This document shows positions 1-20,363 of a stretch of DNA of 22,896 nt, in pieces. The translations under genes and the position numbers were made by a program. A model generated the notes under the pieces. The model was not told the origin of the DNA. It made no database searches and was given only the letters and a program-made list of their open reading frames with translations. The first letter of the stretch is position 1. The number at the start of each line of letters is the position of its first letter. This DNA comes from a virus: positions 1 through 22,896 of IMG/VR virus record IMGVR_UViG_3300035698_000671, one strand, 5' to 3'.

Positions 1-1595
1 ATTCTATAGGTAGGATATCAGCTAGGTCTTCTCAGACATATGACGGAGGGTTGCAGTTTGATGTTTCTCAAAACACAGGGGCAGGTCAGACCAATTTTAT
101 TACAGCAATGACGATTCTTGATACAGGTAACGTAGGTATCGGGACGACTAATCCTACGAGCGCTTTACAGGTTGATGGTCAGGTTTTAATAAGTGCAACG
201 GCTCCTTTTTTGGATTTTGTAGATACAAACAGTTTTACAGATATTGATGATAGGTTTAGGATTCGTGCTGGTACAAATGAAGGGTCTATTCAGTGGATAG
301 ACTCTACAGGAGAGGACACCACTACTTTTATGAATTTTAAAAATACCGGTGATGTTATAGTTCCTAATGGAAAAGTAGGAATTGGAGTAACTTCTCCTAG
401 TTATGCTGTTGATGTTTTAGGAACAAGCGCTGCTGTTCTAGGCGTTAGATCTAGCGGTTTTGCAGGTATTGATGTTATTAGTGATAGAGATTCAGGTAAT
501 TTAGGGGGTATTAGGCTTAAGCACTCTGGAGACACGGCTCAGTCTGTTGAAATATTAGGTTTAATCGGTGGTTCTATAGATTTTAAACTAGGGGGGTCTG
601 GAGAAATAGCTCCATCTTCTAAGGTTAGGTTTGATTCAGATGGCAACGTAGGTATAGGGACGACTAGTCCAGTGCCTGCTCTTCAATTAGTATATAACGG
701 AGGAAGTTACGGAAGTGATTCTACAAGTGGATTTATAAATCAAGCCGACACAGGTAGAGCAACACTAAGGTTACGAAGTATAACAGATAACCCAGCAGAA
801 TTATTTTTTGATACTAATGGTGCTATTAGATGGGGTATATCCTGTAGAAATGGAGCTTCCCCTAATTTACAATTTTATCCACAAGCCGCTACTCCTTCGT
901 ACGCAGGTGTGGCTGCTCATACATTTCAATTAAGTCAAAATGGGGATGTTATTGTAACGGGTTCTGGATCTAGTGGTAAAATGGGTATTGGAACTACTAG
1001 TCCTGAAGAAAAGCTTTCTGTTGTTGGTAATGTAGGCCTAAGTAGTCTTAGTAAATTAATTTTCGCTTCTCAATTAACCCGTTCACCTTACATACAAGGC
1101 AATTGGGCAGATAACTATAATTCAGGTTTAACATTTCGCACGTATGTAAATGGAATAGATACGGAAACTCTAAAACTTGATTCGTTAGGCGACGCAATAT
1201 TTAATGGCAAGGTCGGTATTGGAACGACTAGTCCTAGTGAAAAATTAGATGTAGACGGCATTGGTAAATTTAAAACAAAACTTCTTATAGGCATAACAGA
1301 TGACTCTGATTATGTTTCTTTAGAAAGCACAGCTGGTCACGTTATATCTAGAGTAGATGTACAGGATGGGGTTTTTGATTATGGAGATTCAGCACTTTCT
1401 ATATCTGACGGTAAAGTTGGAATTGGAACATCAGCCCCTAGTGCGGATTTAGATGTCAATGGAACTCTTAAGGCTCAAGCTTACAAGTCTTCTGATGGGT
1501 CAGCTGGAATTACAGGTACTTTTTCTTTTGTAGACCATGATAGTTCCACAAGAACATTAACAATAAAAAACGGATTAATAACAGCAAAATCATAA
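1..1595 (+). CDS. Tail fibre protein, 5'-truncated by window edge
   Basis: The reading frame (codons starting at base 3) is open to the left edge, so the true start lies upstream; the TTG at 51 is only an internal codon. The visible part carries six copies of a short element of the form G-K/N-V-G-I-G-T-T-S-P followed by about eight residues ending in LDVDG-like sequence. Between copies are stretches of variable length, rich in G, S, T and D, that look like beta-structured repeats. Such repeats are typical of trimeric tail fibres and tail-spike-like proteins of marine and Bacteroidota phages, which bind host surface receptors. The C-terminus (SSDGSAGITG, then TLTIKNGLIT) resembles fibre ends in the same phages. 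There is no recognisable S74 chaperone domain in the window. The stop overlaps the next start (TAATG), implying coupled translation. Which receptor it binds cannot be told. Confidence 0.85.
   Translation, partial: SIGRISARSSQTYDGGLQFDVSQNTGAGQTNFITAMTILDTGNVGIGTTNPTSALQVDGQVLISATAPFLDFVDTNSFTDIDDRFRIRAGTNEGSIQWIDSTGEDTTTFMNFKNTGDVIVPNGKVGIGVTSPSYAVDVLGTSAAVLGVRSSGFAGIDVISDRDSGNLGGIRLKHSGDTAQSVEILGLIGGSIDFKLGGSGEIAPSSKVRFDSDGNVGIGTTSPVPALQLVYNGGSYGSDSTSGFINQADTGRATLRLRSITDNPAELFFDTNGAIRWGISCRNGASPNLQFYPQAATPSYAGVAAHTFQLSQNGDVIVTGSGSSGKMGIGTTSPEEKLSVVGNVGLSSLSKLIFASQLTRSPYIQGNWADNYNSGLTFRTYVNGIDTETLKLDSLGDAIFNGKVGIGTTSPSEKLDVDGIGKFKTKLLIGITDDSDYVSLESTAGHVISRVDVQDGVFDYGDSALSISDGKVGIGTSAPSADLDVNGTLKAQAYKSSDGSAGITGTFSFVDHDSSTRTLTIKNGLITAKS
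126..1463 (+). repeat. Six dispersed VGIGTTSP-type coding repeats in the tail fibre
   Basis: Six in-frame units of 54 bases (18 codons) start at 126, 369, 642, 975, 1206 and 1410. The core reads G-[KN]-[VM]-G-I-G-[TV]-[TS]-[SNA]-P, then a segment ending in hydrophobic-D/S-V-x-G. DNA of the core (ggtattggaacgactagtcct-like) stays close between the copies at 642, 975 and 1206, whereas those at 369 and 1410 have diverged. Spacing between copies is irregular (204-333 bases), so this is a dispersed modular repeat and not a tandem array. Confidence 0.85.
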
Positions 1596-2068
1596 TGGAA
1601 CTAATACAGAATTGGAGTTTAGAAGATAAAACTATTTTGTTAGAATCTATAAAGTCAAATATAAATGTAGAGTATAATGATATTATTATTTTTGGTAGTA
1701 GGGTATTTGGAGATTTTACTCCAACATCAGATATTGACATAGTGGTGTATACAAAAGAATCTAAAGATGTAGAATTTTTAACTTATTATTTTGATGCTGT
1801 TGAAAATCCTGAGAGTAAATATAATAACATTAGATGCAGTATATTGTTTAAGTACAGCAAAACATATATAACAGATACTTGGAAAAGCTGTGGCCATGAT
1901 TATTTTCTGTCTAGGTACTCTATAGTCAATGATAAGTTTTATGAAGGAAATCAAAATCATGTTATTCATCATCAAGGTTTAAGAGATTTAATAAAAAAAC
2001 ATAATGGCTGGAACGTTCCATTTGAAGAGTATAGTCTTAAAAATAAAGAATTATTAATAAATAAATAA
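1595..2068 (+). CDS. MNT-type nucleotidyltransferase-like protein
   Basis: A 157-residue protein. Residues 30-51 carry the signature of the minimal nucleotidyltransferase (DNA polymerase beta-like) fold: a hydrophobic strand IIIFGSR (30-36), a glycine two residues on, then SDIDIVVY (45-52), whose two aspartates, D46 and D48, would bind metal. In the family these enzymes transfer a nucleotide monophosphate to an RNA, antibiotic or protein. The third metal-binding acid expected on a later strand is not obvious; the corresponding strand (IRCSILFKY, about 79-87) has no aspartate. The rest is unassigned, with aromatic and His/Cys residues around 98-130. It starts on TAATG overlapping the tail-fibre stop, so it is probably co-translated with it. 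No HEPN-type toxin partner is adjacent, so a toxin-antitoxin reading is not supported. The target is unknown. Confidence 0.7.
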   Translation: MELIQNWSLEDKTILLESIKSNINVEYNDIIIFGSRVFGDFTPTSDIDIVVYTKESKDVEFLTYYFDAVENPESKYNNIRCSILFKYSKTYITDTWKSCGHDYFLSRYSIVNDKFYEGNQNHVIHHQGLRDLIKKHNGWNVPFEEYSLKNKELLINK

Positions 2069-2077: not shown

Positions 2078-2416
2078 ATGGTAAAGTATGATTGGAATTG
2101 TAGGACGGTAGATGCTTACGTAAAAAAAGAAGAGGAATCAGATGTAGTATACAATGTGCATTGGATAGTAACAGGTTTTTCAGATGAATTAAATCCAGAT
2201 GGAAATCCCTACTCCTCTAGAAGCATTGGTACTCAAACTCTGAATACTAGTGAAATTACAAATTTTATACCCTTTGACCAAGTAACAAATGAAGAAATTG
2301 TGGCTTGGACTAAATCATCTATGAGTGAAGAGCAAGTTAAAAATATAGAGACTGGTATATCTACTCAAATAGAATCTATCATTCATCCATTAACGGTAAC
2401 ACTTACCATTAAATAA
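2078..2416 (+). CDS. Small conserved phage protein next to tail fibre
   Basis: A 112-residue protein without an assigned function. The N-terminal half alternates hydrophobic and polar residues (DVVYNVHWIVTG near 22-33), suggesting beta strands. It is followed by a Pro/Asn/Gly-rich turn and the segment NFIPFDQVTNEEIVAW (about 62-77), which begins a mainly helical C-terminal part. The combination of a strand-rich start and an F-x-P-[FY]-[DE]-x-[LV]-T-x-E-x-V-x-x-W motif recalls a small family that I have seen beside tail-fibre genes in marine phages; its role there is not known to me. It has no signal peptide, membrane segment or catalytic motif. It follows the (TAAA) leader by four bases and is the last gene before the promoter-like site at 2436. 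Confidence 0.75.
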   Translation: MVKYDWNCRTVDAYVKKEEESDVVYNVHWIVTGFSDELNPDGNPYSSRSIGTQTLNTSEITNFIPFDQVTNEEIVAWTKSSMSEEQVKNIETGISTQIESIIHPLTVTLTIK

Positions 2417-2941: not shown

Positions 2942-3505
2942 ATGAAATCACCATTCAACTTTATTGTAAGGCCACAAGGAGGTAGACGATACGATAATAT
3001 CAAAAAAATCGGTGGAATTGACTTTGTTACAAGCACCTCTCAAGAAGACCACACAAAAGCGAATAGATATGCTGAAGTTATTGAGACTCCTATAGGGTAC
3101 AGCGGGGAGATAGCTCCAGGAGACACTTTAATAGTTCACCACAATACCTTCAAGTACTACAACGATATGCAAGGGAAACAGAAATCAGGGAAAAGTTTTT
3201 TGATGAACGACCTGTTTCTTATTGACGACTACCAATACTTTTTGTATAAGCATAACAATGAATGGAAGGCAGAGAATCAGTTTTGCTTCGTTAAGCCAAT
3301 ACCTAAAGAAGACCATTACTTGAACACAAACGGAGAAGAACAGCCATTAATAGGGGTTCTAAGGTACTCAAACAATTTTCTTGATAGTATGGGGGTTAGT
3401 AAAGGAGATGTAGTCTCTTATAAGCCTGAAAGCGAGTATGAGTTCGATATAGACGGGGAGAAGTTGTATAGGATTTTTACAAGCATGATAACAATTAAGC
3501 TATAA
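2942..3505 (+). CDS. Possible GroES-like (co-chaperonin fold) protein
   Basis: A 187-residue protein. Two segments look like the small GroES beta barrel. In the first (about 41-73) RYAEVIETP is followed by SGEIAPGDTLIVH, matching the G-x-V-x-x-hydrophobic-x-x-G-D-x-V/L-h-h core. In the second (about 134-187) GVSKGDVVSYKP is followed by EYEFDIDGEKLYRI and a hydrophobic end TSMITIKL, matching the second half of co-chaperonins (GD-VV-F, then a charged strand, D-G-x-x-Y, then hydrophobic residues). Some phages, such as T4 with gp31, encode a GroES substitute needed to fold the capsid protein; this gene sits in the same transcript as the capsid protein. Sequence similarity to GroES is weak, so fold and function are inferred. 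Alternatively it is an uncharacterised structural protein. Its stop overlaps the next start (TAATG). Confidence 0.5.
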   Translation: MKSPFNFIVRPQGGRRYDNIKKIGGIDFVTSTSQEDHTKANRYAEVIETPIGYSGEIAPGDTLIVHHNTFKYYNDMQGKQKSGKSFLMNDLFLIDDYQYFLYKHNNEWKAENQFCFVKPIPKEDHYLNTNGEEQPLIGVLRYSNNFLDSMGVSKGDVVSYKPESEYEFDIDGEKLYRIFTSMITIKL

Positions 3506-3786: not shown

Positions 3787-6010
3787 AGAGTTATATACTA
3801 TAGTTAAAGGTTTCTTACCTAAATCGGTGATGACCAATAAAAATAAGGCAAAATCATTCTCCTACGGGTACGATGAAAAATATGACCTTGTTGTTATTTC
3901 TCGTGACGGAACTTTAGGTGATGTAATAAATATAAACGGCGTTAATATAGGGCTACCTAAAGAAAAGTTAACGTACGTAAGGGATCAAGATAAATCTAAA
4001 CAACACTGGAAACCTTTTGAATACCCTGCTGCGTTGAAAAAAATAAGATCAATATTTCAATGGAACGACTCTCCAAAAGACTTTAAGTCTAAATGGATAG
4101 ACTACGTTGAGACTGAGTTTGATAGACGTGATGAAGGTTTCTGGTTTAAAAATAACGGCATATCCACGTATGTAACTGGGGCCCACTACATGTATTTGCA
4201 ATGGACTAAAATAGATGTGGGCCTACCTGACTTTAGGGAGGCGAACAGAATATTTTTCATATACTGGGAAGCATGCAAGGCTGATAAAAGGAGTTTCGGT
4301 ATGGTGTACTTAAAAATACGTCGTTCTGGTTTTTCTTACATGGGATCATCTGAGTGTGTAAACACGGCAACACTTGCAAAGGATGCAAGAGTTGGTATTT
4401 TATCAAAAACTGGATCAGATGCAAAGAAGATGTTTACAGACAAGGTTGTTCCTATATCTAGTAATTACCCATTCTTTTTTAAACCAGTTCAGGATGGTAT
4501 GGATAAACCTAAAACAGAACTAGCATACCGGGTTCCAGCCTCCAAGATTACTAAAAAAAACATGTACGATTCTGAAGACAGCGATATCGAAGGGTTGGAC
4601 ACAACAATTGACCATAAAAACACTGACGATAACTCTTATGATGGGGAAAAATTATTACTCCTTATTCATGACGAAAGCGGTAAGTGGACAAAACCTAATA
4701 ATATATTAAATAACTGGAGGGTCACTAAAACTTGTCTTAGATTAGGTAGTAGAATAATCGGAAAATGCCTAATGGGCTCTACCTCCAATTCTCTTGACAA
4801 GGGTGGCGAAAACTTTAAAAAATTATACACAGATTCAGATCCAAGAAACAGAAACTCTAACGGTCAGACAAAAAGCGGAATGTATAGCATATTTATACCA
4901 ATGGAATGGAACATGGAGGGTTTTATAGACAGTCACGGCATGCCTGTTTTAGATACGCCTTCTAAGCCTATACTAGGCATGAATGATGAGCTTATAAAGA
5001 TAAGTGCTGTTGATTACTGGAAAAACGAGGTTGATTCACTTAAGAATGATCCTGACGCTTTGAATGAGTATTACAGGCAATTTCCACGAACAGAATCTCA
5101 TGCATTTAGAGATGAAAGTAAAGCTTCTATATTTAATTTGACTAAAATATATCAGCAGATGGATTACAATGACAACTTAATAAGGGACAGGGTTTTAACA
5201 AAAGGTTCATTTCACTGGAAGGATGGAATAAAAGACAGTGAAGTTATATGGACACCAAACGAAAGGGGTAGGTTTCTTGTTTCTTGGATACCGAACAGTA
5301 AGTTGCAGAACAATGTACAAAATAGGAATGGATTAAAATTCCCAGGGAACGAGCATATAGGTGCCTTTGGTTGTGATAGTTATGATATATCTGGAACCGT
5401 AGGTAACGGCGCCTCTAATGGAGCGCTACACGGTATCACTAAATTTCATATGGAGGACGCTCCTTCTGACGAATTTTTCCTAGAATACGTAGCAAGGCCA
5501 CAGACGGCAGAGATATTTTTTGAAGACGTATTAATGGCCTGTGTGTTTTACGGAATGCCTATATTAGCAGAGAACAACAAGCCTAGACTGTTATACCACT
5601 TTAAGAATAGAGGGTATAGAAAGTTTTCTATAAACAGGCCAGATAAACACGCAAGTAAATTATCAGTTACAGAAAGAGAGCTAGGGGGGATGCCTAACTC
5701 TTCAGAATCAGTAAAACAGGCGCATGCGGCTGCCATTGAAACATATATAGAAAAATACGTAGGATACGACTCTGAAGGCACTTATAGAAGCTCTGATGAA
5801 ATGGGGTCTATGATGTTTTCTAAAACACTGAACGACTGGGCAAGGTTTGACATAAATAATAGAACCAAGTTTGATGCATCGATTAGTTCCGGGTTAGCTA
5901 TAATGGCTACGCAAAAACACTTATATCAAACCGTTAAAAAAGAGTCTAAAATTAGTCTTAACTTTGCAACATATAACAACAATGGACGATTTAGCGAAAT
6001 AATTAAATGA
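3764..6010 (+). CDS. terL: Terminase large subunit (TerL)
   Basis: The DNA-packaging motor: an ATPase that drives DNA through the portal plus a nuclease that cuts the concatemer. The 748-residue length fits TerL proteins of crAss-like and related phages. The ATPase half shows a deviant Walker A region KIRRSGFSYMGSSE (184-197), lacking the usual GK[ST]; a clear Walker B LLLLIHDE (297-304) with the D-E pair; and a coupling-motif candidate GKCLMGSTSN (333-342). The nuclease half shows GAFGCDSYD (533-541, first acid D538), E603 after a hydrophobic strand, and NRTKFDASISSGLA (699-712) with D704 as probable third acid. The start is TTG at 3764: an in-frame TGA at 3755 rules out anything earlier, and the next ATG would remove the conserved-looking N-terminus. 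It overlaps its upstream neighbour by 23 bases and the portal start by 4 (ATGA). Confidence 0.92.
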   Translation: MRKEELNKELYTIVKGFLPKSVMTNKNKAKSFSYGYDEKYDLVVISRDGTLGDVININGVNIGLPKEKLTYVRDQDKSKQHWKPFEYPAALKKIRSIFQWNDSPKDFKSKWIDYVETEFDRRDEGFWFKNNGISTYVTGAHYMYLQWTKIDVGLPDFREANRIFFIYWEACKADKRSFGMVYLKIRRSGFSYMGSSECVNTATLAKDARVGILSKTGSDAKKMFTDKVVPISSNYPFFFKPVQDGMDKPKTELAYRVPASKITKKNMYDSEDSDIEGLDTTIDHKNTDDNSYDGEKLLLLIHDESGKWTKPNNILNNWRVTKTCLRLGSRIIGKCLMGSTSNSLDKGGENFKKLYTDSDPRNRNSNGQTKSGMYSIFIPMEWNMEGFIDSHGMPVLDTPSKPILGMNDELIKISAVDYWKNEVDSLKNDPDALNEYYRQFPRTESHAFRDESKASIFNLTKIYQQMDYNDNLIRDRVLTKGSFHWKDGIKDSEVIWTPNERGRFLVSWIPNSKLQNNVQNRNGLKFPGNEHIGAFGCDSYDISGTVGNGASNGALHGITKFHMEDAPSDEFFLEYVARPQTAEIFFEDVLMACVFYGMPILAENNKPRLLYHFKNRGYRKFSINRPDKHASKLSVTERELGGMPNSSESVKQAHAAAIETYIEKYVGYDSEGTYRSSDEMGSMMFSKTLNDWARFDINNRTKFDASISSGLAIMATQKHLYQTVKKESKISLNFATYNNNGRFSEIIK

Positions 6011-8427
6011 GAGAAGTAAAGAAGGATATAAACCCATCAGCATTTCCTAGCCAATACGTACCAGACGCTCAGAAAAATACTTATGAGTTTGGTTTACAGA
6101 TAGGTCAAGCTATTCAGCATGAATGGTTTAAAAGAGACGGTGGTAGTTCTAAGTTTTTTAATCAATGGGATTCATTTCATAAGCTACGTTTATACGCGAG
6201 GGCAGAGCAGTCTGTTTCAAAGTATAAGCAAGAAATAGCTGTAGATGGAGATTTATCGTACCTTAATTTGGATTGGACCCCTGTTCCTATTATACCTAAA
6301 TTCATAGATATAGTAGTCAACGGAATGTCTGACAGAATGTTTGAGGTAAAGGCTTACGCTCAGGACGCTATGTCTGCAGAAAAAAGAAATAATTATCAAA
6401 ACACCATACAAGCCGACATGGTTTCAAAGGATGTTTTGACACAAATAAAAAACGATTTAGGGGTTGATGCATTTAATAACGATCCAGAAAACTTGCCTGA
6501 GACTGACGAAGAACTAGAGCTGCATATGCAACTCAATTACAAGGCGTCTATAGAGCTTGCTGAAGAAGCGGCGATTAACACTATACTTGCTGAAAACCTT
6601 TACTCAGACACTAGAAAAAGAATGCTGTATGACATCACTACATTAGGTGTGGGGATGACAAAGCATGAATTTGAAAAAGGTAACGGGATTGTTGCAAAAT
6701 ATGTAGATCCAGCAAACGTTGTTTACAGCTACACGGAGGATCCTAATTTTAAGGATTGCTTTTATTGGGGAGAGGTGAAAACTGTTTCTACAGGAGAGGT
6801 ATTAAAAATTGATCCAACCGTAACTAGAGAACAGTTAAAAGAAATAGGTAAAGCTAGTTCTGATTGGGCTGGAGCTTACAAGGACAGTAGTTACTATGAT
6901 AATTCCTCGTTTAGTGGAGATACAGCTACTTTATTGTACTTCAATTACAAGACAACAAAGAAGTTTGTTTATAAGAAAAAAGGTGAAAAAGTAATAGAAA
7001 AAGAAGACACTTTTAACCCACCAGCAGAAATGATGGAGGAAAGAGGTTTTGAAAAGATTGAGAAAGTCATTGACGTCTGGTATGAAGGCGTAATGGTTAT
7101 GGGTACCAATATAGTTCTTAAGTGGGAGATGTCAGAAAACATGGTTAGACCAAAGTCAGCATCACAAAACGCTGTATCTAATTATGTTGCATGTGCTCCA
7201 AGGATGTACAAAGGAAATATAGAGTCTTTATTAAGAAGAATGATTCCTTTTGCAGACCTTATACAAATGACTCACTTAAAATTACAGCAAGTAATACAGA
7301 GAGTGGTTCCTGATGGGGTGTTTATAGATGCGGATGGATTAAATGAAGTGGACTTAGGTAATGGTCAGGCTTACAATCCAGAAGACGCACTTAAGCTATA
7401 TTTCCAGACAGGTTCTGTTATCGGTAGAAGCTTTACTCAGGACGGAGAATTTAATAACGCTCGTATACCAATACAAGAGTTATCAAAGAGTTCTAGTCAA
7501 GGTAAAATAGGTAGTTTGATAGGTAGTTATAATCACTACTTACAAATGCTTAGGGATGTAACTGGGTTAAATGAAGCTAGGGATGGATCAATGCCAGACC
7601 CTGATTCATTAGTAGGCCTACAGAAGATGGCAGCATTAAATAGTAACACAGCTACAAGGCATATACTTGATGGGTTATTGGATATTTCTAGGGATGTAGC
7701 GGTTGCATTGACTTGTAGAATATCAGACGCTTTAGAGTATTCTTCTTTCAAGGAGGAGTTTATAATGCAAATAGGAAAATTCAACGTAAGTCTTTTAGAA
7801 GATATTAAGGATTTGCATTTATACGATTTTGCTATATTTATAGAACTAACACCTGATGAAGAGCAAAAACAACAGTTAGAATCAAATATTCAGATGGCAC
7901 TATCTAAGCAATCAATTGATCTTGATGACGCTATTGATATTCGTGAAATAAGAAACGTTAAATTAGCCAACCAATTATTAAAGGTTAAAAAAAGGAAGAA
8001 AGAAAAAGATCTTCGTAAGTTTGAAATGCAGAAAATGCAGCAACAACAAGAAGCTCAGATTCAGTCTCAGCAAATGGCTGGACAGATGTCATTTCAAAAA
8101 CTAGAAATGGAAACACAGTCAGAGATGCAGATATCTCAAGCAAAAGCTGGTTTTGATATTGAAAGAATGAGAGGCGAGGCTGAAATAAAGTCTGGACTAA
8201 TGAAATTAGAGTTTCAATTACAAATGAGTTTAAAAGGATTAGATACAGAAAACCTTTCAAAAAGAGAAGAAGCTAAAGAAAAGGCTAAGGACGATAGAAT
8301 AAGTAAACAAAACACACAACAATCAAGATTGATAGAGCAACGAACTAAAGACTTGTCGCCTGTAAATTTTGAATCTAATGAAGACACGTTGGATGGTTTT
8401 GATTTATCTGAGTTCGAGCCTAGATAA
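6007..8427 (+). CDS. Portal protein
   Basis: The dodecameric ring at the capsid vertex through which TerL pumps DNA. Supporting evidence: it follows TerL directly with a 4-base overlap, has a large size (806 residues, fitting long podovirus portals) and a portal-like middle region. That includes IPFADLIQMTHLKLQQVIQR (about 412-431), the likely stem/crown helices, followed by DGVFIDADGL, and RDVTGLNEARDGSMP (about 516-530), resembling the R-x-x-T-G-hydrophobic motif of portals. From about residue 650 to 780 the protein is a long Gln/Glu/Lys-rich helix with a QQQQ run and Met-Gln repeats. This would correspond to the C-terminal barrel reaching into the capsid of P22-like and crAss-like portals. 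The final 20 residues are acidic (F-x-L-S-E-F-E). I am confident on role, less so on subdomain boundaries. Confidence 0.9.
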   Translation: MREVKKDINPSAFPSQYVPDAQKNTYEFGLQIGQAIQHEWFKRDGGSSKFFNQWDSFHKLRLYARAEQSVSKYKQEIAVDGDLSYLNLDWTPVPIIPKFIDIVVNGMSDRMFEVKAYAQDAMSAEKRNNYQNTIQADMVSKDVLTQIKNDLGVDAFNNDPENLPETDEELELHMQLNYKASIELAEEAAINTILAENLYSDTRKRMLYDITTLGVGMTKHEFEKGNGIVAKYVDPANVVYSYTEDPNFKDCFYWGEVKTVSTGEVLKIDPTVTREQLKEIGKASSDWAGAYKDSSYYDNSSFSGDTATLLYFNYKTTKKFVYKKKGEKVIEKEDTFNPPAEMMEERGFEKIEKVIDVWYEGVMVMGTNIVLKWEMSENMVRPKSASQNAVSNYVACAPRMYKGNIESLLRRMIPFADLIQMTHLKLQQVIQRVVPDGVFIDADGLNEVDLGNGQAYNPEDALKLYFQTGSVIGRSFTQDGEFNNARIPIQELSKSSSQGKIGSLIGSYNHYLQMLRDVTGLNEARDGSMPDPDSLVGLQKMAALNSNTATRHILDGLLDISRDVAVALTCRISDALEYSSFKEEFIMQIGKFNVSLLEDIKDLHLYDFAIFIELTPDEEQKQQLESNIQMALSKQSIDLDDAIDIREIRNVKLANQLLKVKKRKKEKDLRKFEMQKMQQQQEAQIQSQQMAGQMSFQKLEMETQSEMQISQAKAGFDIERMRGEAEIKSGLMKLEFQLQMSLKGLDTENLSKREEAKEKAKDDRISKQNTQQSRLIEQRTKDLSPVNFESNEDTLDGFDLSEFEPR

Positions 8428-19958: not shown

Positions 19959-20363
19959 ATGATTGTAAGAAAGTTAAATTCAAGTGATTATGACGACATA
20001 CTAGTAGGGTGGTGGAAGCAATGGAGATGGACACCACCCTCTAAAGACTTTCTTCCAGAAGATGGTGAAGGCGGTTGGATAGTCTATGACGGAGACATTC
20101 CTGTGTGTGCCGGGTTTAATTATATAACAAACTCAAAAACTGGATGGTGTGAATTCATTATATCAAACTTTGATTACAAGGATAAGGAAAAAAGAAAGCA
20201 AGCTTTAGCTACATTAATAGCGACAATAAACAAGTTTTTCGAGATACAAGGGTGTAAGTACATATTTACATCTGTAAAGAACGAGTCACTAATAAGTGCT
20301 TATGAAGAATCTGGTTTTCAGCGAGGTTCAAACAAATGTTTAGAAATGGTAAAAATAATATAA
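19959..20363 (+). CDS. GNAT-family N-acetyltransferase-like protein
   Basis: A 134-residue protein of the size of a minimal GNAT domain. Family members move an acetyl group from acetyl-CoA to an amine on a protein or small molecule. Visible features in order: an opening strand MIVRKLNSSDYDDI; a Trp-rich WWKQWRWTPP (18-27); GGWIVYDGDIPVCAGFNYI (38-56), the central strands; CEFIISNFDYKDKEKRKQAL (64-83), where motif A should lie; and YIFTSVKNESLISAYEESGF (101-120), the C-terminal strand-helix with the N-x-x-L-I-x-x-Y-E-x-x-G-F pattern of GNAT motif B. The canonical pyrophosphate loop Q/R-x-x-G-x-G/A is replaced by KEKRKQA, so activity is uncertain. It is the first gene after the promoter-like site at 19946 and precedes the internal virion genes by one base. 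Target unknown. Confidence 0.75.
   Translation: MIVRKLNSSDYDDILVGWWKQWRWTPPSKDFLPEDGEGGWIVYDGDIPVCAGFNYITNSKTGWCEFIISNFDYKDKEKRKQALATLIATINKFFEIQGCKYIFTSVKNESLISAYEESGFQRGSNKCLEMVKII

Follow-up and report, generated by a model that had tools for sequence, protein, structure and literature searches.

The closest described systems are the minimal nucleotidyltransferases (NTases) of the MntA type (PF01909; MntA-HepT, PMC7641770), small, single-domain proteins that carry an exact GSX10DXD motif and are encoded beside a presumed protein partner, all of which also applies to the fibre-linked NTase described here. With this same motif, MntA AMPylates a tyrosine of the protein encoded next to it (PMC7641770). 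The fibre-linked NTase differs in having no HEPN partner, in scoring about 24 bits against the 60 expected of MntA, in having lost the third acid in the clade of the sequence analysed here, and in possessing an extra C-terminal LPxYSL/Y.GN motif, and its partner is a phage fibre. The best fold matches are ANT(4'), KNTase, ANT(3'')/(9) and Tam41, but these are larger, two-domain enzymes, the sequence match to them lies below all family cut-offs, and nothing around the fibre-linked gene resembles the small-molecule resistance context of the ANTs. Other phage-encoded NTases (phrog_388, phrog_14344 and the tRNA nucleotidyltransferases of Pectobacterium phages, PMC7693777) belong to the same superfamily, but they are larger proteins with no reported fibre linkage, and we found no published pairing of an NTase with a fibre in the open-licence literature. 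The position directly behind a fibre is shared with Tfa, gp38, T4 gp57A and the S74 intramolecular chaperones, and several of the linked fibres have S74. Unlike the NTase, these have no enzyme fold and act as chaperones or adhesins.

The window, meaning the whole stretch of DNA that was analysed, is an IMG/VR viral record of 22,896 bases, and all features given here lie on its plus strand. It begins with the 3' part of a tail-fibre gene (3..1595) that is open at the 5' end of the window, has its first in-frame start at position 51 and matches the PHROG tail fibre families phrog_9942 (9e-23) and phrog_18345 (5e-19). The fibre ends in a C-terminal tip domain (NGTLKAQAYKSSDGSAGITGTFSFVDHDSSTRTLTIKNGLITAKS; 1458..1592) defined by alignment and by profile matches with iE values of 1e-20 to 1e-26. 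The NTase of 157 residues follows with an ATG start (1595..2068), and its assignment is based on the ORF, Pfam, conservation, an AlphaFold2 model and fold searches. The fibre TAA occupies 1593-1595 and A1595 is common to this stop and the NTase ATG, a one-base overlap, so that the ORF starting on the fibre stop and its GSR...SDIDI signature are exactly as given in the original prediction. That prediction also spoke of translational coupling, of which the overlap is a fact; the offsets seen in relatives (-4, -1, +1 and +11 nt) fit termination-reinitiation without showing it. No terminator was found between the fibre and NTase genes and no inverted repeats were found at the locus, where promoter-like matches were little above those in shuffles of the same AT-rich stretch. 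The next gene (2078..2416) encodes a DUF7936 protein (Pfam PF25590, 1.7e-18) and has the same place in three relatives (L001-L003); it is probably a neighbour and not part of the fibre-NTase pair, and its presence agrees with the earlier statement that no HEPN partner adjoins.

Further along, the window encodes a GroES-like co-chaperonin (2942-3505; phrog_13932, 1.5e-20), and in relatives structural-operon chaperonins lie a short distance behind the NTase, as with the GroEL-like and GroES-like genes of L001 (3228-5067). The structural module also contains a 134-residue protein (19959-20363) matching phrog_17252 of unknown function (3.8e-44), whose C-terminus looks acetyltransferase-like by eye only and has no Pfam match. 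The earlier view that such enzymes are rare in structural modules applies to the NTase, and relatives hold a GT32 glycosyltransferase and SET domains in or near the same module. The SET-domain genes (protein lysine methyltransferase-like; L003 1909-2319 and L217 6559-6960; Pfam 9e-8 and 7e-7) lie near GroES-like and terminase genes, and the one in L217 has beside it, in front of the terminase, a DUF6445 protein (5984-6559; PF20043, 1.4e-5). Further methyltransferases behind fibres (L185, L217) were plausible by eye, fell below the Pfam cut-offs and were not used as evidence.

By profile, motif and fold, the window protein is a member of the polymerase-beta-type nucleotidyltransferase superfamily (NTP_transf_2). 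It matches Pfam NTP_transf_2 (E=1e-8, 35.9 bits, cut-off 21) and Polbeta (9.6e-8), as do all 14 non-redundant relatives. Its motif, G34-S35-R36...S45-D46-I47-D48, is an exact GSX10DXD (residues 34-48, GSRVFGDFTPTSDID; 1694..1738) and is the predicted nucleotide and metal-binding site. G34, S35, R36, D46 and D48, including the two aspartates previously described as intact, are invariant in 14/14 non-redundant relatives, down to 34-39% identity, and close and distant homologues alike keep both GSR/SDxD and the fibre linkage. The other invariant residues are M1, L3, Q5, W7, W96, Y103, Y108-S109, Y116 and G118, those from Y103 onward marking a family-specific C-terminal motif (FLSRYSIVNDKFYEG, residues 104-118; 1904..1948) that reads LPxYSL in most members.

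Modelled with AlphaFold2, the window protein (pLDDT 70) and a member of the sister clade (clade II; pLDDT 76) both show an NTase core. The best solved Foldseek match was ANT(4')-IIb (probability 0.99, E 3e-3), followed by kanamycin NTase and other ANTs, and VIA-align gave Tam41 and ANT(4')-IIb with Z scores of 5.1-5.7. The scores are modest, but the match lists are dominated by one superfamily, and both models have a fold of the polymerase-beta type. Within PHROG, the phage NTase families phrog_388 and phrog_14344 were matched only at E about 0.1. More specific identities were considered and rejected. The MntA antitoxin of type VII toxin-antitoxin systems is one, in that the NF047752 cut-off was missed (23.7 bits for L006 against 60; best member E 6.4e-6) and no HEPN toxin with RX4HXY adjoins, the neighbours being fibre, DUF7936, coiled-coil, GroES-like or GroEL genes. 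The protein is likewise not placed among the aminoglycoside nucleotidyltransferases (12.5 bits against 340 for ANT(9), below cut-off) or the known tail-fibre assembly proteins, to which there was no Pfam or PHROG match.

The third acid, which had not been evident from the window alone, is replaced. In the alignment, the window has S82 (IRCSILF; 1838..1840) where the sister clade has an aspartate (WFVMDITF), and strand E79-87 of the window model matches E87-96 of the sister model. Classical catalysis depends on the third acid, whereas membership of the superfamily, as judged by profile and fold, does not. In MntA it is D71, which helps bind the second Mg2+ (PMC7641770), so that the NTase of the window's clade (clade I) could be impaired or could rely on a different group. 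With S82 in its place the catalytic activity of clade I is in doubt. One speculative candidate for the substitute is Asp94 (1874..1876), which is invariant in the window clade (TDTW/KDTW) and is Asn or Gly in the sister clade. A reciprocal exchange between the third acid and D94 was considered and is suggestive only, as this loop is variable among members of clade II.

Scans of viral contigs yielded 20 viral records with a stand-alone NTase gene, the window included, and their 14 non-redundant sequences fall into two clades that are 34-39% identical to each other. Clade I consists of the window, L001, L002 and L011/L012, with L003 as a fragment, and is set apart by a C-terminal extension and by S82, the counterpart of an Asp (VMDITF) in clade II. 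In clade II (L004, L006, L007, L009, L015 and L018-L024) the DxD strand is followed by an inserted cysteine cluster, RCPCC, that possibly binds metal and is absent from the window's clade. Pairwise dN/dS was about 0.03-0.14 where dS could be estimated, and the gene is therefore under purifying selection in both clades. Among 50,697 records of annotated phages there was no NTase homologue (best E 0.5 over 28 residues); low-scoring T4-like matches of the sister NTase are chance, the one examined lying upstream of the annotated gene and not inside it. Bacterial and archaeal genomes gave only two weak matches from Bathyarchaeota that covered about 40 residues of the motif. The carriers are some uncultured marine and aquatic phages. 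The terminase and a major structural protein of the window are closest to those of the environmental podovirus MW202828.1 (terminase 70.6% identical) and next to those of Maribacter, Flavobacterium elemo and Cellulophaga phages. The host is therefore probably a marine or freshwater flavobacterium. MW202828.1 has neither the NTase nor the tip beside its fibre, and neither was found in the regions read of Maribacter phage Panino and elemoA.

The link between the NTase and the fibre is consistent. In all 19 records in which the upstream end is visible, the NTase begins at an offset of -4, -1, +1 or +11 nt relative to the stop codon of a fibre gene, and all of these fibres share one C-terminal tip of about 37-45 residues (YKSSDxxxGxTxT...IKNGLIT). 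Most clade II fibres have an S74-type chaperone domain after the tip, and the fibres of the window, L001, L002, L007, L011 and L015 have none. Among 58 sister contigs, collected via a neighbouring gene and having enough upstream sequence, tip and NTase were both present in 13 and only one of the two in none, while both were absent in 80 contigs related to the window, collected via another neighbour gene (62 of them with more than 1.5 kb upstream). From this presence in 13/58 sister contigs and 0/80 around the window, the NTase gene is accessory. At 11 clade II loci, distances between NTases correlated with those between tips (Mantel r=0.71, P=0.0005), compared with 0.40 for the following 96-residue gene and 0.08 each for GroEL and GroES, with the caveat that NTase and tip adjoin and some co-divergence is expected from linkage alone. 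The pattern fits a fibre-NTase cassette that may move between phage backbones. A strict form of this association, in which the tip is the exclusive partner of the NTase, was rejected, since shorter tips and some long ones with no NTase came up in a broad scan (L113, L115, L119-L120, L125-L128 and others), and the invariant residues of the NTase-linked tips are largely found in these as well. Given that such tips occur in other phages with no NTase, any dependence would run in one direction only: NTase implies tip, not the reverse. In L113 and L114 a long tip of the same type lies at 3001-3138 with no NTase nearby; these may belong to a different phage group, one source contig being 123 kb.

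The same broad scan found a different phage, IMGVR_UViG_3300031227_009133 (L112/L143), in which one uninterrupted ORF of 369 residues, on a single contig and open at its 5' end, contains fibre sequence, the tip (YKSQDGTAGVTENHTF...TTKNGLVT), about 105 residues and an NTase domain. The fused domain retains an intact GSX10DXD and the C-terminal motif as LPQYSL, and scores 22.6 bits against Pfam (cut-off 21). Its third acid is not evident: plain MAFFT places the third strand ambiguously, and a Cys aligns to S82 by eye. When genes that normally lie side by side are found fused, this is classically read as evidence of a common function, and that the fibre-NTase pair functions together is well supported.

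We propose that the NTase is a fibre-cassette enzyme that would nucleotidylate the fibre, probably at the tip, during assembly, and we give this reading a probability of about 45%. In this hypothetical mechanism the NTase would be the enzyme half of a mobile fibre cassette. The overlapping gene would be translated after the fibre gene, in the same place and in step with the fibre, and its product, taken to be catalytically active, would bind an NTP with Mg2+ at GSX10DXD. A nucleotidyl (AMP-type) group would then pass to the fibre, most likely onto a hydroxyl-bearing residue in its C-terminal tip, either ahead of virion assembly or in the course of it, and the altered tip chemistry could change how the fibre binds its receptor, how stable it is or how the host recognises it. 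We infer the acceptor role of the fibre as well as the nucleotide, residue and benefit involved; the likely chemistry, by analogy to MntA acting on HepT, is nucleotidyl transfer to a hydroxyl of the partner protein. We count for this reading the NTase identity, the GSR/DxD invariance, the adjacency to the fibre, the co-inheritance with the tip, the fusion, the purifying selection and a nearby GT32, and against it the lost third ligand (clade I and the fused protein), the tips without NTase, the invariant tip residues they share, the linkage and the restriction of the fusion to one contig. A fibre-dedicated modifying enzyme is the most economical reading of a protein that is made with the fibre, moves with the tip and has an NTP site preserved by selection.

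The fusion behind the tip would also fit if the NTase-fold protein were itself a virion-borne part of the fibre, located at the tip or beside it and acting in receptor binding or in cell-surface chemistry, with the fused protein as its one-chain version. The conserved non-catalytic motifs, M.L.Q.W at the N-terminus and LPxYSL/Y.GN at the C-terminus, could then be docking surfaces, and the nearest solved folds bind aminoglycoside sugars. Yet NTPs are scarce outside cells while GSX10DXD is invariant, and the stand-alone NTase has no visible fibre-attachment domain, and we consider this role unlikely. About as improbable is a role inside the cell, as an effector or counter-defence enzyme with a host RNA, tRNA or protein as its target, in which case the NTase would accompany the fibre only because both are linked in an exchangeable part of the genome. 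Toxins, tRNA and proteins are among the targets of small NTases from this superfamily, and the fibre-linked NTase weakly resembles the MntA antitoxin models. Pol-beta NTases have been listed among phage protein-modifying domains (PMC5512222). For such an effector one would not expect an unvarying position after a single type of fibre across two diverged clades and phages of different groups, nor fusion to the fibre in one contig, and no HEPN or other toxin partner lies nearby. Of the three roles first suggested, the fibre-directed one gains from tip co-inheritance and the fusion, and searches for a HEPN partner or RNA link gave no findings in favour of a tRNA-directed or host-RNA activity. Very unlikely is a weak or dead NTase fold serving as a fibre-specific chaperone or adaptor that could replace the missing S74 in the window fibre, since, for all that clade I has lost the third acid, six NTase-linked fibres lack S74 and the gene sits where tail-fibre assembly genes do, a pure chaperone would have no need of the invariant GSR and DxD and the NTase occurs both with and without S74.

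Our preferred reading of a fibre-modifying enzyme can be extended, more tentatively, to a wider one. In L031 (721-1377) and L080 (4316-4972), a GT32-type glycosyltransferase gene (PF04488 Gly_transf_sug, 2e-11 and 5e-11) sits between fibre-like genes in the region corresponding to the NTase site of sister phages, in keeping with a more general tendency to place modifying enzymes near fibres. It is possible, to our minds still short of probable, that a dedicated enzyme inherited together with the tip attaches a nucleotide to it covalently (by AMPylation, UMPylation or similar) and so tunes the host-binding organ after translation. NTase and possibly glycosyltransferase genes would then be interchangeable enzymes that accompany the fibres of aquatic phages, and in one phage the enzyme would have become part of the fibre chain.

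Tail fibres decide which bacteria a phage can infect, and their variation is commonly regarded as a matter of sequence only. The existence of a dedicated NTase that accompanies one tip, and has in one phage been fused to it, suggests chemical modification of the fibres as a further means in some phages. If so, predicted fibre sequences would not be sufficient to explain host range, and two small genes would constitute a directly testable enzyme-substrate pair.
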